This document shows, one piece after another, positions 17,980-23,114 of a stretch of DNA of 39,222 bases; the first letter of the stretch is position 1, and each line of letters starts with the position of its first letter. Under the pieces are notes generated by a model that ran no database searches, had not been told where the DNA came from, and saw nothing but the letters and a program-made list of their open reading frames with translations. The translations under genes were made by a program, and so were the position numbers. Origin of the DNA: an uncultured Roseburia sp. (lineage in GTDB: Bacteria; Bacillota; Clostridia; Lachnospirales; Lachnospiraceae); assembly GCA_947088345.1 (NCBI GenBank), contig CAMUGE010000032.1, positions 1 through 39,222 of the forward strand. The letters are read 5' to 3'.

Positions 17980-18070
17980 AATAAAACACAAACACCGCAG
18001 CTTCGAAAGACGTAGTAATTCAAGGGATACCGCCAGCGCCTTTTACGGAGAGGCAGTACAGGAGGTAATT

Positions 18071-18946
18071 ATGGCAGCTCTTGGCGTTCCGCAGAATACA
18101 ATCGCAATTTTACAGAAATATCAGTTTCGCTTTCAGAAAAGATTCGGTCAGAATTTCCTGATTGATACACATGTTCTGAATAAGATTATGGAGGCCGCCG
18201 GCATTACAAAAGAAGATTTTGTACTGGAGATCGGTCCGGGGATCGGGACACTGACACAATATCTCTGTGAAAATGCAAGAGAAGTTGCGGCTGTGGAGAT
18301 TGACTCCGGTTTGATTCCTATTTTAAATGAAACGTTGAAAGACTATGAAAATATTACATTATTAAATCAGGATATACTAAAAGTTGATATCGGAAAGATC
18401 GCAGCGGAAAAGAACGGCGGCAGGCCGATTAAGGTAGTCGCGAACCTTCCTTATTATATAACGACACCGATCATTATGGGATTGTTTGAAAGCCATGTTC
18501 CGCTTGATTCTATTACCGTAATGGTGCAGAAAGAAGTCGCCGAACGTATGCAGGCTTCTCCCGGTACAAAAGACTACGGGGCGCTCTCTCTGGCGGTGCA
18601 GTATTATGCGAAGCCGCAGATTGTGGCGAATGTGCCTCCGAATTGTTTTATGCCGCGCCCGAAAGTCGGCAGTACGGTGATCCGCCTTACGGGGCACAAA
18701 AAGCCGCCGGTCGCTGCGGTTGACGAAAAGCTCTTATTTCAGGTGATAAGGGCCTCCTTTCGGCAGCGCCGCAAGACGCTTTCCAACGGGCTTTCTAATG
18801 CGTCTGAAATTATGTTATCCAGAGATGAGATTGCCGGCTGCGTAGAAAAGATGGGGCTGTCTGCCACAGTGCGGGGAGAGACGCTTACCCTGTCGCAATT
18901 TGCGGAACTTTCCAATCTGATACAAGGTAAAATCAAAAGCAAATGA
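18071..18946 (+). CDS. rsmA: 16S rRNA dimethyladenosine transferase
   Basis: A 291-residue KsgA/RsmA methyltransferase that dimethylates the two adjacent adenosines in the 3' terminal helix of 16S rRNA during small-subunit assembly. Visible motifs are KRFGQNFLID, the SAM-binding EIGPGIGTLTQ, the acidic EIDSGLIP, and the catalytic NLPYYITTPI. The start at 18071 has GGAGG five bases upstream; the longer upstream frame is not conserved. It is followed directly by the sporulation-type genes, and a hairpin at 18959-18999 may end or attenuate its transcript. Confidence 0.96.
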   Translation: MAALGVPQNTIAILQKYQFRFQKRFGQNFLIDTHVLNKIMEAAGITKEDFVLEIGPGIGTLTQYLCENAREVAAVEIDSGLIPILNETLKDYENITLLNQDILKVDIGKIAAEKNGGRPIKVVANLPYYITTPIIMGLFESHVPLDSITVMVQKEVAERMQASPGTKDYGALSLAVQYYAKPQIVANVPPNCFMPRPKVGSTVIRLTGHKKPPVAAVDEKLLFQVIRASFRQRRKTLSNGLSNASEIMLSRDEIAGCVEKMGLSATVRGETLTLSQFAELSNLIQGKIKSK

Positions 18947-18953
18947 TTTTGGT

Positions 18954-18981
18954 TCATAAAAATCTCCTTTCCACATATATT
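18954..18981 (+). promoter_or_regulatory. Sigma-E-like promoter of the spoIID-like gene
   Basis: TCATAAA (18954-18960), 13 bases, CATATATT (18974-18981). The sigma-E consensus is roughly KMATAWW and CATACAHT with 13-15 bases between. Transcription would begin near 18988, just before the AAGGAG at 18989. Sigma-E control agrees with what is known for spoIID in Bacillus and Clostridioides. Confidence 0.65.
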
Positions 18982-18999
18982 GTAGGACAAGGAGATTTT
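18959..18999 (+). promoter_or_regulatory. Hairpin covering the spoIID-like ribosome binding site
   Basis: Perfect 11-base arms at 18959-18969 and 18989-18999. The right arm contains the AAGGAG that serves the ATG at 19003. On mRNA reading through from rsmA the site would be base-paired. The T-rich tail could also make this a weak rsmA terminator. Confidence 0.75.
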
Positions 19000-19002
19000 A
19001 TT

Positions 19003-20079
19003 ATGCGCAGAAAATTTCATCGACGAAGATATCGTCCCAATTGTAACTTGATTCTACTGTTCTTTATCTTGTTTTTGTTTTTTCTGATCTTAATCCAGCG
19101 GATACAGATTGAAAATCTCTGTGACGATGACGATGATGACGACGAGTGTCTGGTTCCAATTTCCACAGAACAGACGCCTGTGATGATGCCGGAGCCGGCA
19201 GGCGTATCGGTTGCAGATGATTTGGAAAATGAAGAAAATCAGTCAAAGATGCCGGAGGATACCGCAGCGTCGGAGAGGGGAAATGGGATTGCGGAACCCC
19301 GGGCCGAGGGAGAAGAGGAGGAAGCCCTCTCAGAGTTGGAAAAACAGGTGGCCTTGACTGCGGCTAAACAAATTCGAATTTCAGCGAAAAAGGAGACAAT
19401 TAAGGCACAGTGCGTTCTGGCGCGTACAAGTATCCTCGACGCTCAAAAAAACGGGACAACCGTTCCGTCGTCCCTGACAGAATCAGAGATGCGGCAGCTC
19501 TGGGGGGATGACTGGGAAAAAAATCTCGCGCATTTTAAAGAGTGCGCACTAGAGACCAGGGGGGAAGTGCTGACATATCACGGAAACTATATTTATGCAG
19601 CCTATCATGCCGTTTCCGCGGGCACAACGCGCAGTATGACAGAATTATATCAGGATACCGATATGCCCTACCTGGCGAATGTAACCTGTCCGAAAGACGC
19701 TTCCGCAGACAATTATCTGGCCGTACTGTATTGGGAAAAAGACGAGTTTTTAAAAAAATGCAGTGAACTGGCGCAAAGCGGGGAGATCGCCGGTATGACG
19801 GAAGTTTCGATTACCGGAAGAGACAGTGCGGATTATGTGCTGACCGTACAGATCGGAAGCGCTTCCTGTTCGGGAGAGGAATTTCGCAGCGCCTTTTCGC
19901 TTAATTCATCCTGTTTTACCATTGCAGACCTTGACCAAAAAGTAAGGATTGTCACAAAGGGTATCGGTCATGGATTTGGCATGAGCCAGGCAGCCGCTAA
20001 TGAAATGGCGGCGGACGGCGCGTCCTGTCAGGAATTGCTCGCTGCTTTTTTTCCAAATGCAGTTTTAGAACAGTCATAA
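19003..20079 (+). CDS. spoIID: SpoIID/LytB-domain protein, probable SpoIID
   Basis: A 358-residue membrane-anchored protein. It has an Arg-rich N-terminus, one helix at about residues 14-32, an acidic run DDDDDDDE (about 41-48), a low-complexity linker, and a SpoIID/LytB domain (about 110-358). SpoIID is a lytic transglycosylase of the engulfment complex. Recognisable landmarks are TIKAQCVLARTS, YHAVSAGTTRS and the C-terminal GHGFGMSQAAANEMA. The expected catalytic Glu (AAEMP in canonical members) is not seen; AAKQI occupies that place. A SpoIIQ-like gene follows, the order known in Clostridia. The start at 19003 has AAGGAG eight bases upstream. The assignment to SpoIID itself rests on this context and the sigma-E-like promoter. 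Confidence 0.75.
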   Translation: MRRKFHRRRYRPNCNLILLFFILFLFFLILIQRIQIENLCDDDDDDDECLVPISTEQTPVMMPEPAGVSVADDLENEENQSKMPEDTAASERGNGIAEPRAEGEEEEALSELEKQVALTAAKQIRISAKKETIKAQCVLARTSILDAQKNGTTVPSSLTESEMRQLWGDDWEKNLAHFKECALETRGEVLTYHGNYIYAAYHAVSAGTTRSMTELYQDTDMPYLANVTCPKDASADNYLAVLYWEKDEFLKKCSELAQSGEIAGMTEVSITGRDSADYVLTVQIGSASCSGEEFRSAFSLNSSCFTIADLDQKVRIVTKGIGHGFGMSQAAANEMAADGASCQELLAAFFPNAVLEQS

Positions 20080-20106
20080 AATTTGTAAATAATTTTGTAT
20101 CCTTTT

Positions 20107-20135
20107 GTATAAACCATCCAATCAAGGTAACAATA
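20107..20135 (+). promoter_or_regulatory. Sigma-F/G-type promoter of the spoIIQ-like gene
   Basis: GTATA (20107-20111), 14 bases, GGTAACAATA (20126-20135). The -10 fits every fixed position of the sigma-F pattern GGnnAnAnTR. spoIIQ is a classical sigma-F gene in the forespore. Confidence 0.65.
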
Positions 20136-20178
20136 TAGATAAACGAAGTTTCGTTTGAGGAAAAGAAAAACAGGATGG

Positions 20179-21027
20179 ATGGTGAAGAAAATGAGAAAGA
20201 CAGGTTGGTCTGCGATCTGGAAGCAGAAGCAATATGTGATTGCGGGAACACTGGTGATTATTGCTGCAATCGGGACAACGATTTTCTACGGAACGCGCGA
20301 GGAATCGAAACGGGAGCAGATGGAGGCGGAAATTGCCGAGGAGATGCAGATTCAGGAAGAGCAGGTAGCAGAGGAAGAAGATTCAGAAGAATCGGCGATT
20401 GTATCGGCTGTAATTCCGCCGAGGACCTCGGAGATCAGGGAAATGCCTGATACCCAGATGCAAAATGCAGTGGAGCTTGAGGATCTGCTCGGTGACGCCG
20501 GAGAACAGACGGATGAGGACGAAACGATGCAGCCGGAGACGGAAGAAGCGGTTCAAACAGCTGCCGACAACGTGAAAAAAGAGACTGCAAAGACAACCGC
20601 GTTACATTTTTCGCCGGAGGACGGTATGATCTGGCCAATGCAGGGGAATGTGATCTTAAATTTCAGTATGGATTCCACAACATATTTTCCCACGCTTGAC
20701 CAGTATAAATATAATCCGGCCATAATTATTGCGGGCGAGGTCAACAGCAAAGTCTATTCCGTTGCGAAAGGAAAGATAAGTTCCATTGAAAATACGGCTG
20801 AGACAGGTACGACGATGACCGTGGATCTTGGCGACGGTTATACAGCTGTTTACGGTCAGCTGAAAGAGCTGAATTTTAAAGAGGGCGATTTTGTGGAATC
20901 CGGACATGTCCTTGGATTTATCAGCGAGCCCACAAAATACTATTCCGTTGAGGGAAGCAATCTGTATTTTGAATTGTTAAAAGACGGGGAACCAATCAAT
21001 CCGGTAGAATTTTTTGAAGAGCAGTAG
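20179..21027 (+). CDS. spoIIQ: Degenerate M23/LytM protein, SpoIIQ-like
   Basis: A 282-residue protein with one membrane helix (about residues 16-33), an acidic linker, and a LytM/M23 fold (about 155-280) recognisable from VDLGDGYTAVYGQLKEL, FVESGHVLGFISEP and ELLKDGEPINPVEFF. None of the zinc ligands is present: the HxxxD site reads NPAII, the HLS region reads GQL and HxH reads NLYF. SpoIIQ links the forespore membrane to mother-cell SpoIIIAH during engulfment, and in some species its LytM domain is also inactive. Position after the spoIID-like gene and a sigma-F-like promoter support the call. The start is uncertain: ATG at 20179, ATG at 20191, or TTG at 20155. Confidence 0.78.
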   Translation: MVKKMRKTGWSAIWKQKQYVIAGTLVIIAAIGTTIFYGTREESKREQMEAEIAEEMQIQEEQVAEEEDSEESAIVSAVIPPRTSEIREMPDTQMQNAVELEDLLGDAGEQTDEDETMQPETEEAVQTAADNVKKETAKTTALHFSPEDGMIWPMQGNVILNFSMDSTTYFPTLDQYKYNPAIIIAGEVNSKVYSVAKGKISSIENTAETGTTMTVDLGDGYTAVYGQLKELNFKEGDFVESGHVLGFISEPTKYYSVEGSNLYFELLKDGEPINPVEFFEEQ

Positions 21028-21044
21028 AATAGTGCTGCAGTGAT

Positions 21045-21075
21045 AAACGGCGCGGCGATTGCCATGCCGTTTTTT
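21045..21075 (+). terminator. Rho-independent terminator after the spoIIQ-like gene
   Basis: AACGGC and GCCGTT arms with an inner GGC/GCC pairing, followed by a run of T. Confidence 0.75.
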
Positions 21076-21333
21076 CGTTTGCCGGGAGAGATCGCGTGCG
21101 TGTGCGCCGGGACATACATTTTTATTTTTACGTTTCTGTCACATCATCTGTTGTACCGCATATCTTATCATGTAAGGAAAATTCGCAATCGGTTCCTTTA
21201 CATGGCAGTATTTGTTTTTGATATGTAATGTACATTCTGTGTCGATTGCTTCTATATAGATTATGGTCTGCTCCCGCCAAAAATCAGGAGGGAGCGGGCC
21301 TACATAACATAGTGAGCAGCGAAAATCCTTATA
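21076..21333. other. Intergenic stretch with no gene seen
   Basis: Two short open frames here (21040-21228 plus, 21139-21402 minus) lack ribosome binding sites and family features. I see no further structure before the promoter at 21334. Confidence 0.4.
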
Positions 21334-21362
21334 TTGACAAAAAAAACGGAATGTACTATAAT
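21334..21362 (+). promoter_or_regulatory. Consensus sigma-A promoter of the DEAD-box helicase
   Basis: TTGACA (21334-21339), exactly 17 bases, TATAAT (21357-21362): a perfect match to the sigma-A consensus. Transcription would begin near 21369 and leave a leader of about 150 bases. Confidence 0.88.
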
Positions 21363-21376
21363 CAAATCTGCTGAAA

Positions 21377-21410
21377 TAAGGCTGTTGTACCTTTGTGTGC
21401 AACAGCCTTA
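21377..21410 (+). promoter_or_regulatory. Leader hairpin of the DEAD-box helicase mRNA
   Basis: Perfect 11-base arms at 21377-21387 and 21400-21410 around a 12-base loop, beginning about eight bases after the predicted transcription start. It is followed by A-rich rather than T-rich sequence, so it is not a normal terminator. It may stabilise or regulate the mRNA. Confidence 0.6.
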
Positions 21411-21521
21411 AAAATTCTTAATAACAGGAAGATATCACTGCGTGCTTTTATTGTCCATGACAACAGAAAGTGAACCCATATATTTTCTATTGTTATGTCA
21501 CGACTAGAAATGGAGATTAAA

Positions 21522-23114
21522 ATGGAGACAGTCAGATTTGAAGAGTTGGATTTATATCCGCAGATATTGCGTGCAATCGCAGAAATGGGCTTTGAGGAGG
21601 CAACGCCGATTCAGAGTCAGGCAATTCCGGTTGTAATGTCAGGTGCGGACGTGATAGGACAGGCACAGACAGGAACCGGAAAAACGGCATCTTTTGGTAT
21701 ACCGGTGCTGCAGAAAATTGATCCGAATAATAAGAAAACACAGGCTATTATTCTTTCGCCGACCAGGGAGCTTGCAATCCAGGTGGCGGAAGAAATTCGA
21801 AAACTGGGCAAATATATGCATGGGATCAAAGTTTTGCCGATTTATGGCGGGCAGGAGATTACACGTCAGATCAAGGCGTTAAAAGGAGGCTCCCAGATTA
21901 TTATCGGAACGCCGGGGCGCGTTATGGATCATCTGCGCCGCAAAACGATTCGTCTGGAATCGGTAGATACCATCGTGCTGGACGAGGCGGATGAGATGCT
22001 GAATATGGGATTTCGGGAGGATATCGAGACAATACTTGAATATATTCCGAATGAGGAGCGCCAGACCGTATTGTTTTCGGCGACCATGCCAAAACCGATT
22101 TTAGAGATTACAAAAAAATATCAGCATGACGCCGTGACGATTCGTGTTGTCAAGAAAGAACTGACCGTGCCGAGTATTGAGCAGTATTATTATGATGTCA
22201 AGCGAAAAGATAAAGCGGAAGTGCTCTCGAGACTATTGGACTATTATAACCCGAAACTTTCCCTTGTATTTTGTAATACAAAAAGGATGGTAGACGAGCT
22301 GACCGAAACACTGCAGGGACGGGGCTATTTTGCAGAAGGGCTGCACGGCGATATGAAGCAGACACAGCGTGACCGGGTGATGAAAGGGTTCCGCAACGGC
22401 AAAACAGAAATATTGATTGCCACCGATGTGGCGGCGCGCGGAATCGACGTTGATGATGTGGAAGCCGTTTTTAACTACGATATTCCGCAGGATGATGAAT
22501 ATTATGTGCACCGTATCGGCAGGACAGGCCGTGCCGGCAGAACCGGCCGCGCCTTTACGTTTGTAAAAGGAAAAGAGGTTTACAAGTTAAAAGACATCAT
22601 GCGCTACTGCAAGACAAAGATCGTAGCCATGCCGATCCCGTCGAGTGACGACGTGGCGCAGATCAAAGCCGAGAAAGTCATGGAGGAGATCGCGCATATT
22701 ATCGACGAAGAAAACCTGAAAGATATGATCAATATCATTGAAGAGCAGGTAAACCAGTCGGATTACACCGCAATGGATATAGCGGCCGCGTTTTTAAAAC
22801 AGGCGCTTGGACAGGTAAATCTGGACAATGACAAATCGTCGGAACCGGATTTTGGCGATACCGGTGCGGAAGAAGGCATGGTACGTCTCTTTATCAATAT
22901 AGGAAAGAAAGACCGTGTAAAACCGGGCGATGTCTTAGGCGCGGTTGCCGGTGAGTCGGGGATGCCGGGAAAATTGGTCGGCGCAATTGATATGTACGAT
23001 AAATACACTTTTGTGGAAGTGCCCAGAGAATATGGGCGTGAAGTATTAGAAGCAATGAAAAATGTAAAAATTAAAGGTCATTCCATCAATATGGAACCTG
23101 CGAATCAAAAATAG
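21522..23114 (+). CDS. DEAD-box ATP-dependent RNA helicase with DbpA-type tail
   Basis: A 530-residue helicase. The Q motif FEEATPIQSQAIP is near residue 27, Walker A AQTGTGKT near 47, DEAD near 152 and SATMP near 187. The second RecA-like domain has HRIGRTGRAGR near 328. The C-terminal part (about 450-528) resembles the DbpA RNA-binding fold seen in CsdA/DeaD and CshA-type helicases. The likely role is RNA remodelling in ribosome assembly or RNA decay, often cold-induced. The start at 21522 (METVRFEEL) has GGAG six bases upstream; the in-frame ATG at 21495 has none. It is a single-gene unit with its own promoter and terminator. Confidence 0.94.
   Translation: METVRFEELDLYPQILRAIAEMGFEEATPIQSQAIPVVMSGADVIGQAQTGTGKTASFGIPVLQKIDPNNKKTQAIILSPTRELAIQVAEEIRKLGKYMHGIKVLPIYGGQEITRQIKALKGGSQIIIGTPGRVMDHLRRKTIRLESVDTIVLDEADEMLNMGFREDIETILEYIPNEERQTVLFSATMPKPILEITKKYQHDAVTIRVVKKELTVPSIEQYYYDVKRKDKAEVLSRLLDYYNPKLSLVFCNTKRMVDELTETLQGRGYFAEGLHGDMKQTQRDRVMKGFRNGKTEILIATDVAARGIDVDDVEAVFNYDIPQDDEYYVHRIGRTGRAGRTGRAFTFVKGKEVYKLKDIMRYCKTKIVAMPIPSSDDVAQIKAEKVMEEIAHIIDEENLKDMINIIEEQVNQSDYTAMDIAAAFLKQALGQVNLDNDKSSEPDFGDTGAEEGMVRLFINIGKKDRVKPGDVLGAVAGESGMPGKLVGAIDMYDKYTFVEVPREYGREVLEAMKNVKIKGHSINMEPANQK

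Follow-up and report, generated by a model that had tools for sequence, protein, structure and literature searches.

In bacteriophage T4, the long early RNA of gene e (lysozyme), like those of I-TevI, soc and gene 49, hides the Shine-Dalgarno (SD) sequence or the AUG (PMC3014915). According to the available passages of that account, the late promoter of gene e is located within the 5′ strand of this fold, and the late RNA, which lacks that strand, is translated (PMC3014915). For the Bacillus subtilis sporulation gene sigG (spoIIIG), it has been proposed that a leader hairpin of 20 or more bp prevents read-through RNA from being translated (PMC5942855). In the accessible part of that source, this large hairpin cannot form in RNA made from the gene's own promoter, and read-through comes from the upstream spoIIG operon (PMC5942855).

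An arrangement like those of gene e and sigG is predicted upstream of spoIID in a 39,222-nt stretch of DNA from an uncultured Roseburia sp. (hereafter the window). SpoIID of Clostridioides difficile is described, in the portion of the report available, as a lytic transglycosylase expressed under sigma-E (PMC6221140). An earlier note on the window, made from the sequence alone, had proposed that a hairpin hides the spoIID SD sequence only on RNA reading through from rsmA. Our analysis indicates that nucleotides 18954–19005 probably silence spoIID specifically on read-through RNA, acting partly as a terminator and partly as a mask of the translation start, and that they contain the sigma-E-like promoter of the gene. 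A literature search covering titles and the beginnings of abstracts, with subscription journals mostly outside its reach, did not find this element at spoIID described.

Results

The spoIID locus

Three genes lie consecutively on the plus strand of the window: rsmA (ksgA; 18071–18946, with the stop codon TGA at 18944–18946 and a start codon chosen by eye), spoIID (19003–20079; 358 amino acids from the ATG at 19003) and a spoIIQ-like gene encoding an M23 peptidase (20191–21027). The rsmA product exceeded the cutoff of the NCBIfam ksgA equivalog model (E = 2.1e-83), and SpoIID exceeded those of Pfam PF08486 and NCBIfam SpoIID_LytB; the spore_II_D model matched SpoIID with E = 6.7e-47, yet below its own cutoff. 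The product of 20191–21027 was above the cutoff for Pfam Peptidase_M23 and below that of the SpoIIQ model (E = 8.1e-10). Among the best 80 of 132 confirmed relatives, the closest SpoIID in the named contigs was 83% identical and came from an uncultured Roseburia sp. When 12 relatives from the genus were aligned, one SpoIID was 84% identical to that of the window and the other 11 were 37–44% identical. Residue 123 of SpoIID aligns with the Glu of the AKE motif, which we take to be the probable catalytic Glu. This residue is Gln in the window, and the 76 aligned SpoIIDs have E (51), Q (23) or D (2) at this position.

The gap between the rsmA stop codon and the spoIID start codon is 56 nt. An alternative ATG (18943–18945, plus strand) overlaps the rsmA stop codon (ATGA) and is in frame with spoIID, 20 codons upstream of its start, with no good SD sequence; L003 and L032 have the same arrangement. 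Judging from this sequence, coupled ribosomes could open the hairpin and enter spoIID from the upstream ATG, which counts against tight silencing in the window species.

Predicted hairpin over the spoIID SD sequence

The left, anti-SD arm of the hairpin, AAAATCTCCTT (18959–18969, plus strand), was recognized by complementarity, folding and covariation and lies in the −35 and spacer region of the promoter described below. The right arm, AAGGAGATTTT (18989–18999, plus strand), contains the SD sequence AAGGAG (18989–18994), which is 8 nt before the ATG at 19003. As previously noted, the two arms are perfectly complementary over 11 bp, and they are 19 nt apart. The T-rich run that follows the stem, TTTTATT (18996–19002, plus strand), resembles the U-tract of a terminator; it is interrupted in the window and longer in most relatives. 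Both this run and the in-frame ATG at 18943 had been overlooked in the earlier description of 18954–19005.

RNA corresponding to 18930–19040 was predicted to fold with −28.7 kcal/mol (z −4.55), and none of 200 dinucleotide shuffles folded as well. As background we used 291 gene leaders, with starts chosen by script, that were drawn from 400 kb of the window's genome. An SD helix of equal or greater strength was found in 2 of these leaders, and 3 had an SD sequence that was paired equally or more. The cost of opening the start region in the window was 15.6 kcal/mol on read-through RNA vs 2.9 kcal/mol on RNA from the predicted start, with a median of 4.8 and a 99th percentile of 12.8 for full-length background leaders. 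The predicted structure, in which the SD sequence of the longer RNA is paired with an arm that precedes it, is what read-through-specific start-site masking requires. When nucleotides 18000–21600 were searched with the covariance models of Rfam 15 up to E = 5, two weak matches were obtained, neither of them over the element. Because the arms form a palindrome, an AAGGAG with an ATG (18957) behind it is present on the minus strand as well; the resulting 72-codon ORF (18957–18739), antisense to the end of rsmA, is probably meaningless.

Sigma-E-like promoter within the hairpin

Sigma-E-like elements occupy the left arm and loop of the hairpin (18954–18981). Motif matching identified a −35 element, TCATAAA (18954–18960, plus strand), and a −10 element, CATATATT (18974–18981, plus strand), the latter in the loop; with a spacing of N13 they fit what we take to be the sigma-E promoter consensus. 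The match agrees with the overlap of promoter and left arm that had been claimed before. Transcription is predicted to start at 18988 (plus strand), 7 nt after the −10 element, with an uncertainty of a few bases. With the promoter placed in this way, a transcript beginning near 18988 would not include the left arm. Among 20 Roseburia-type leaders, CATATA and the last T of the −10 element were invariant, and in the scored relatives of this type the −35 element was mostly GAATGNN and sometimes TCATANN.

A comparative set was assembled from the best 80 of the 132 confirmed relatives plus the window, L010 and L013. Seven of these 83 rows were dropped, leaving 76 non-redundant spoIID leaders: in L036 an insertion separates the SD sequence from the start, L045 and L047 are truncated, the frame of L085 is broken near the start, and L032, L038 and L079 are near-duplicates. 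Other genus loci of the first draw, most of them on the same contigs as the named set, were left out, and L017, L018 and L020–L029, from other families of the order, were inspected by eye only. By title, 59 of the 76 loci are from Lachnospiraceae and 8 from Eubacteriaceae. Start codons were set by hand or motif for L040, L048, L064, L067, L069, L071, L072, L077, L083 and L101 and by script for the rest. In L064, L067, L069, L071, L072 and L083, spoIID seems to start with CTG (TTG or GTG in relatives), preceded by a strong G-rich SD sequence that is AGGGGGTG in most of them. The hairpin is kept in L036 (1500–1740), where an insertion-like stretch separates its SD sequence from the conserved spoIID start.

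Promoters were scored against the sigma-E consensus with weights that we set ourselves. On this scale, 62 of the 76 spoIID leaders reached at least 9, compared with 9 of the 291 background leaders, and 6 of the 76 had no promoter call. The predicted start was 13–19 nt before the start codon in 43 of the 70 loci with a call. At 12 loci with scores of at least 9 (L077, L087, L089, L090, L096, L098, L099, L101, L104, L105, L110 and L111), it coincided with the ATG or missed it by a single base, and leaderless messages are therefore predicted. L078 and L095 also have a predicted start at or next to the ATG, with weak promoter scores. The leaderless-type −10 element is mostly CATAAAGT, about 6 nt before the ATG (L087, L089, L090, L096, L098, L104, L105, L110, L111 and L077).

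Covariation and recurrence of the pairing

The hairpin was seen with changed arms in genus relatives, including those in which SpoIID is only 37–44% identical. Alignment of the rsmA–spoIID junction in relatives, which the earlier note had suggested as a check on the pairing, gave evidence of covariation. In the 20 Roseburia-type leaders, 92.5% of the cells of a 12-bp helix were paired, vs 43–65% in slid helices. Both sides had changed in 7 of the 12 pairs (20 cells), and 0 of 500 shuffles were as high in the share of paired cells or in either of these counts; the number of extra pair types in this helix was not above that of shuffles (151/500 as high). In the predicted leaderless clade (10 loci), the −10 region and codons 5–10 form a helix of 20 pairs. 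Here 91.5% of cells were paired, vs 36–51% in slid helices, 6 pairs had changed on both sides (3/500 shuffles as high), and the covariation score was matched by 0 of 500 shuffles. Thus, pairing is kept by compensatory change in both sets, as start-site masking would have it.

The geometry of the pairing varies between groups. The SD sequence is paired in the Roseburia-type loci, in the Lachnoclostridium-type loci (L103, L107 and L109) and in some loci of the Eubacterium 14-2 kind. In a second geometry, the AUG is paired with the −10 region, and there is covariation at codon 3 (L082, L094, L099, L100 and L101). Support from these five leaders was modest, with 9/500 shuffles as high for the covariation score and 105/500 for changes on both sides. 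Codons 3–9 are paired with an arm that precedes the −10 element in L053, L055, L076 and L080, where an inner stem covers the AUG. The four leaders of the UroD clade kept their pairs, but with 1 of 26 changed on both sides (418/500 shuffles as high) they are too conserved for support by covariation. Each of these aligned sets has one arm that precedes the predicted start. The central proposal, that the left arm is not transcribed from the gene's own promoter and the start is hidden only on read-through RNA, was thereby strengthened by covariation and extended to other geometries of unequal strength, and the masking was associated with the orientation of the neighbouring gene (see below).

We also compared the duplex energy of the upstream and start regions with that of dinucleotide shuffles. 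At p ≤ 0.05, 36 of the 76 spoIID leaders were positive vs 15 of the 291 background leaders, and at p ≤ 0.01 the numbers were 28 and 2, respectively. In a separate test of 30 Clostridia loci outside the order, 6 reached p ≤ 0.05 (L132, L135, L136, L138, L146 and L152) and 24 did not; this test used the best-scoring matches of a class-wide draw, mononucleotide shuffles and script-chosen starts (probably wrong in L156), with neighbour orientation unclassified. A search of the window's own genome for a sigma-E-like −10 element near an SD sequence and ATG gave 16 matches, compared with 7 for a reversed control pattern. Besides spoIID, only L168, a 27-codon ORF that is probably spurious, had a high opening cost on read-through RNA. 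The pattern was narrow, so other genes perhaps share the element, although the 16 matches held no convincing second case.

Terminator-like features

Terminator-like hairpins were scored over a span ending at +35 for spoIID loci and at +4 for background leaders. Scores above 0 were obtained for 33 of the 59 loci with a co-directional neighbour (see below), 0 of the 17 with a divergent neighbour and, over the narrower span, 13 of the 291 background leaders. The element itself scored above 0 at 31 of the 59 co-directional loci, the scores of L072 and L107 being from other hairpins. The window, with its interrupted T-run, had a modest score of +10, and the 18 relatives with a memQN gene upstream ranged from 0 to 46. 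A separate terminator scan that allowed only loops of 3–8 did not report the element site. As expected of an intrinsic terminator, positive scores occurred where the upstream gene is co-directional and at no divergent locus, in a comparison that is confounded by clade.

The spacer between SD and start had at least 6 T residues of 8 in 16 of the 18 memQN-type leaders vs 6 of the 291 background leaders. Its mean T fraction was about the same with co-directional (0.58) and divergent (0.54) neighbours, against 0.27 in the background, which indicates that a T-rich spacer by itself does not follow orientation. In contrast, the bases just before the T-run paired with the untranscribed promoter at 40 of the 59 co-directional loci vs 2 of the 17 divergent loci. 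In those 40 loci, the T-run started after −8 to −6 (22), +7 (4), +17 to +20 (6), +30 (6) or +36 (2). Hydrophobic codons may account for the T-runs that lie in coding sequence, and the non-coding ones therefore weigh most. Five loci (L074, L078, L091, L097 and L102) mask the start with no terminator-like score. The earlier proposal of translational silencing is partly supported, in that the start is predicted to be masked on read-through RNA. However, the hairpin usually runs into a U-tract, and for this reason termination may be no less important than silencing at the level of translation.

Orientation of the upstream neighbour

The nearest recognized neighbour, identified by tblastn, was co-directional with spoIID at 59 loci and divergent at 17, the weakest calls being L054 (the Roseburia inulinivorans type strain; rsmA 626 nt away) and L088 (nearest recognized neighbour 1194 nt away). 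The co-directional neighbours were rsmA (25 loci), a Q/N-rich membrane gene (memQN; 18 loci) and others (16 loci); the labels memQN, rSAM, UroD, flagellin, cl14 and cl16 were assigned by eye, with only rsmA otherwise based. Read-through would come from rsmA, as had been proposed, at 25 of the 59 loci, the window among them, but from memQN or another gene elsewhere.

For each locus, we made 60 shuffles of the sequence that precedes the predicted start and recomputed the cost of opening the start region. Occlusion of the start was significant (p ≤ 0.05) at 51 of the 59 co-directional loci compared with 2 of the 17 divergent loci. The median z was 4.38 vs 0.49 (Mann-Whitney p = 2e-7), among loci that are related, so that the comparison is confounded by clade. 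Eight co-directional loci lacked significant occlusion (L053, L072, L081, L084, L093, L095, L106 and L108). Three of them (L053, L093 and L095) passed the U-tract test and two (L072 and L084) have separate terminators, leaving L081, L106 and L108. The divergent loci that were positive were L067 and L069 in the occlusion test and L059 and L064 in the U-tract pairing test. A separate terminator before the promoter was found at 2 of the 51 loci with the element (L052 and L010) and at 2 of the 8 others, the scanned space being very short in many cases.

On a quick SpoIID tree, orientation required 6 changes and the element 10, and both were clustered. An independent-pairs test had 4 pairs on supported branches, of which 2.2 went the same way and 0.3 the other way (median p 0.5), and was underpowered. 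With both traits clustered and only 4 independent pairs, the association with orientation is not phylogenetically secured. Within a mostly divergent clade of 22 rows, 4 of the 6 co-directional members have the element (L052, L058, L062 and L086), whereas in the remaining two (L072 and L084) an ordinary terminator precedes the promoter.

Complementarity in the spoIIQ leader

A weaker complementarity was found in the leader of the spoIIQ-like gene. By motif match, this leader has GTATA at 20107–20111 and GGTAACAAT at 20126–20134 (plus strand), which resemble a sigma-F promoter. In the minimum free energy fold, a left arm beginning with CCATCCAA (20113–20123, plus strand) lies in the promoter spacer and a right arm (20174–20183, plus strand) lies over the SD region GGATGGATGGT; within 20107–20193, ACCATCC of the spacer is complementary to GGATGGT of the SD region. 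The 131-nt leader of the window had a fold z of −1.15, with 27 of 200 shuffles as good, and an occlusion p of 0.04. A spoIIQ match was obtained at 69 of the 76 loci, and 47 leaders remained when 6 short leaders and near-duplicates were left out. Occlusion was significant (p ≤ 0.05) in 17 of the 47, with p values of 0.06–0.24 in several Roseburia-type loci; the spoIIQ start of L094 looks wrong. The complementarity of spacer and SD recurs in relatives, and in L054 the arms have changed together (ACCGTC/GACGGT). These sequences are suggestive of a device that could keep a forespore gene silent on mother-cell read-through RNA from spoIID. Further downstream, within 21334–21421, a sigma-70 promoter matching at 12 of 12 positions (TTGACA-17-TATAAT) precedes an ORF that by eye resembles a DEAD-box helicase. 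Just downstream of this promoter is an inverted repeat, AAGGCTGTTG...CAACAGCCTT, perhaps a structured leader.

Discussion

We infer the following mechanism for the element upstream of spoIID. RNA polymerase arriving from rsmA would transcribe both arms. The hairpin would then fold and end a fraction of the transcripts at the U-rich run, as an intrinsic terminator does, and would hide the SD sequence on transcripts that escape termination. In the mother cell, sigma-E polymerase would bind the elements inside the left arm and loop and start near 18988, producing RNA with a free SD sequence in a leader of about 15 nt. As the left arm is absent from it, this RNA would be neither terminated nor masked. 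The purpose of such an arrangement would be to keep a wall-cutting enzyme out of cells without sigma-E, including vegetative cells.

It is considerably less likely that the hairpin is a switch of translation only, which merely hides the SD sequence on read-through RNA, the T-run being incidental. The start was costlier to open on read-through RNA in every locus computed (those with a predicted start at −13 or further), a result to be read against background genes, which also differ between read-through and native RNA, by 2.5 on average. Moreover, the five loci named above occlude the start with no terminator-like score, and L136 and L138, outside the order, mask the SD sequence with no T-run after the stem. 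An incidental T-run is difficult to reconcile with T-rich spacers far above background in memQN-type leaders, or with T-runs that follow the pairing bases at several positions (mostly −8 to −6, +7, +20 and +30), the coding ones possibly reflecting hydrophobic codons. Somewhat more doubtful still is a plain intrinsic terminator of the upstream gene that overlaps the spoIID promoter and SD sequence by chance, with no selection for masking. Such a terminator would explain the U-tract, the association with co-directional neighbours and the finding that no separate terminator was detected at 49 of the 51 loci with the element. However, several loci mask the start with no U-tract, and in the aligned clades the right arm is on the SD sequence, the AUG or early codons, which is not needed for termination as such. 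We therefore favour a combined terminator and mask, in which either part may weigh more.

SpoIIID regulates some sigma-E genes in B. subtilis, and the perfect palindrome around the promoter could be a DNA site for this or another protein. We consider this very improbable, since the arms shift relative to the promoter between clades, the reverse of what a fixed site would show, and we rejected it because the arm sequences vary between relatives while their complementarity is kept. A chance palindrome or compositional artefact might be suspected given that the SD sequence constrains one arm and AT-rich leaders fold easily, but the recurrence of the hairpin at 37–44% SpoIID identity argues against it, and the background, shuffle and slide controls leave it a negligible probability.

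The combined terminator and mask may belong to a family-wide insulator in which promoter and terminator coincide, a tentative generalization to which we give slightly less than even weight. The spoIID sigma-E promoter of Lachnospiraceae and their kin would have evolved as the complement of the gene's own translation start (SD, AUG or codons 5–10), usually with a U-tract, where a neighbour transcribes in, and a weaker version would be present at spoIIQ. If this is true, a single sequence terminates or silences RNA entering from the neighbour and also initiates the developmental transcript, and the version at spoIIQ would bar a forespore protein from being made on mother-cell spoIID read-through. 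Complementarity between promoter and gene would be a general way of enforcing the cell-type identity of tightly packed sporulation genes, and selection would even shape protein N-termini. Such an element would also mean that what a developmental promoter achieves depends on sequence left untranscribed by it, the promoter being an antisense lock on its own gene. The idea offers a comparative test, in that neighbour orientation should predict the lock, and it predicts, for RNA start-site maps of gut Lachnospiraceae, spoIID messages that either have leaders of about 15 nt or are leaderless. Reporter fusions with the promoter alone would miss part of the control of such genes.

Masking that is specific to read-through RNA is already known, and on our comparison T4 gene e and B. 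subtilis sigG are its direct precedents. As with spoIID, the product of gene e cuts the cell wall; gene e differs in being a phage gene with a T4 late promoter, and the available passages describe no terminator U-tract, dependence on neighbour orientation or pairing with internal codons (PMC3014915). Unlike spoIID, sigG is a forespore gene with a sigma-F/sigma-G promoter, and its large hairpin is called predicted or proposed in the accessible passages, which mention neither covariation nor a U-tract (PMC5942855). The element also resembles intrinsic (Rho-independent) terminators in having a stable stem and, just after the upstream gene, a T-run, which is interrupted in the window; it differs in that its left arm and loop hold the predicted promoter, while its right arm is formed by the SD sequence or by codons of the gene that follows. 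In riboswitch or attenuator terminators and in SD-sequestering hairpins, one 3′ arm is used for termination or for masking of the SD sequence. In contrast to these, the spoIID element has neither ligand nor leader peptide, and its switch would be the choice of transcription start, an arrangement that would link T4 lysozyme, sigG and spoIID.
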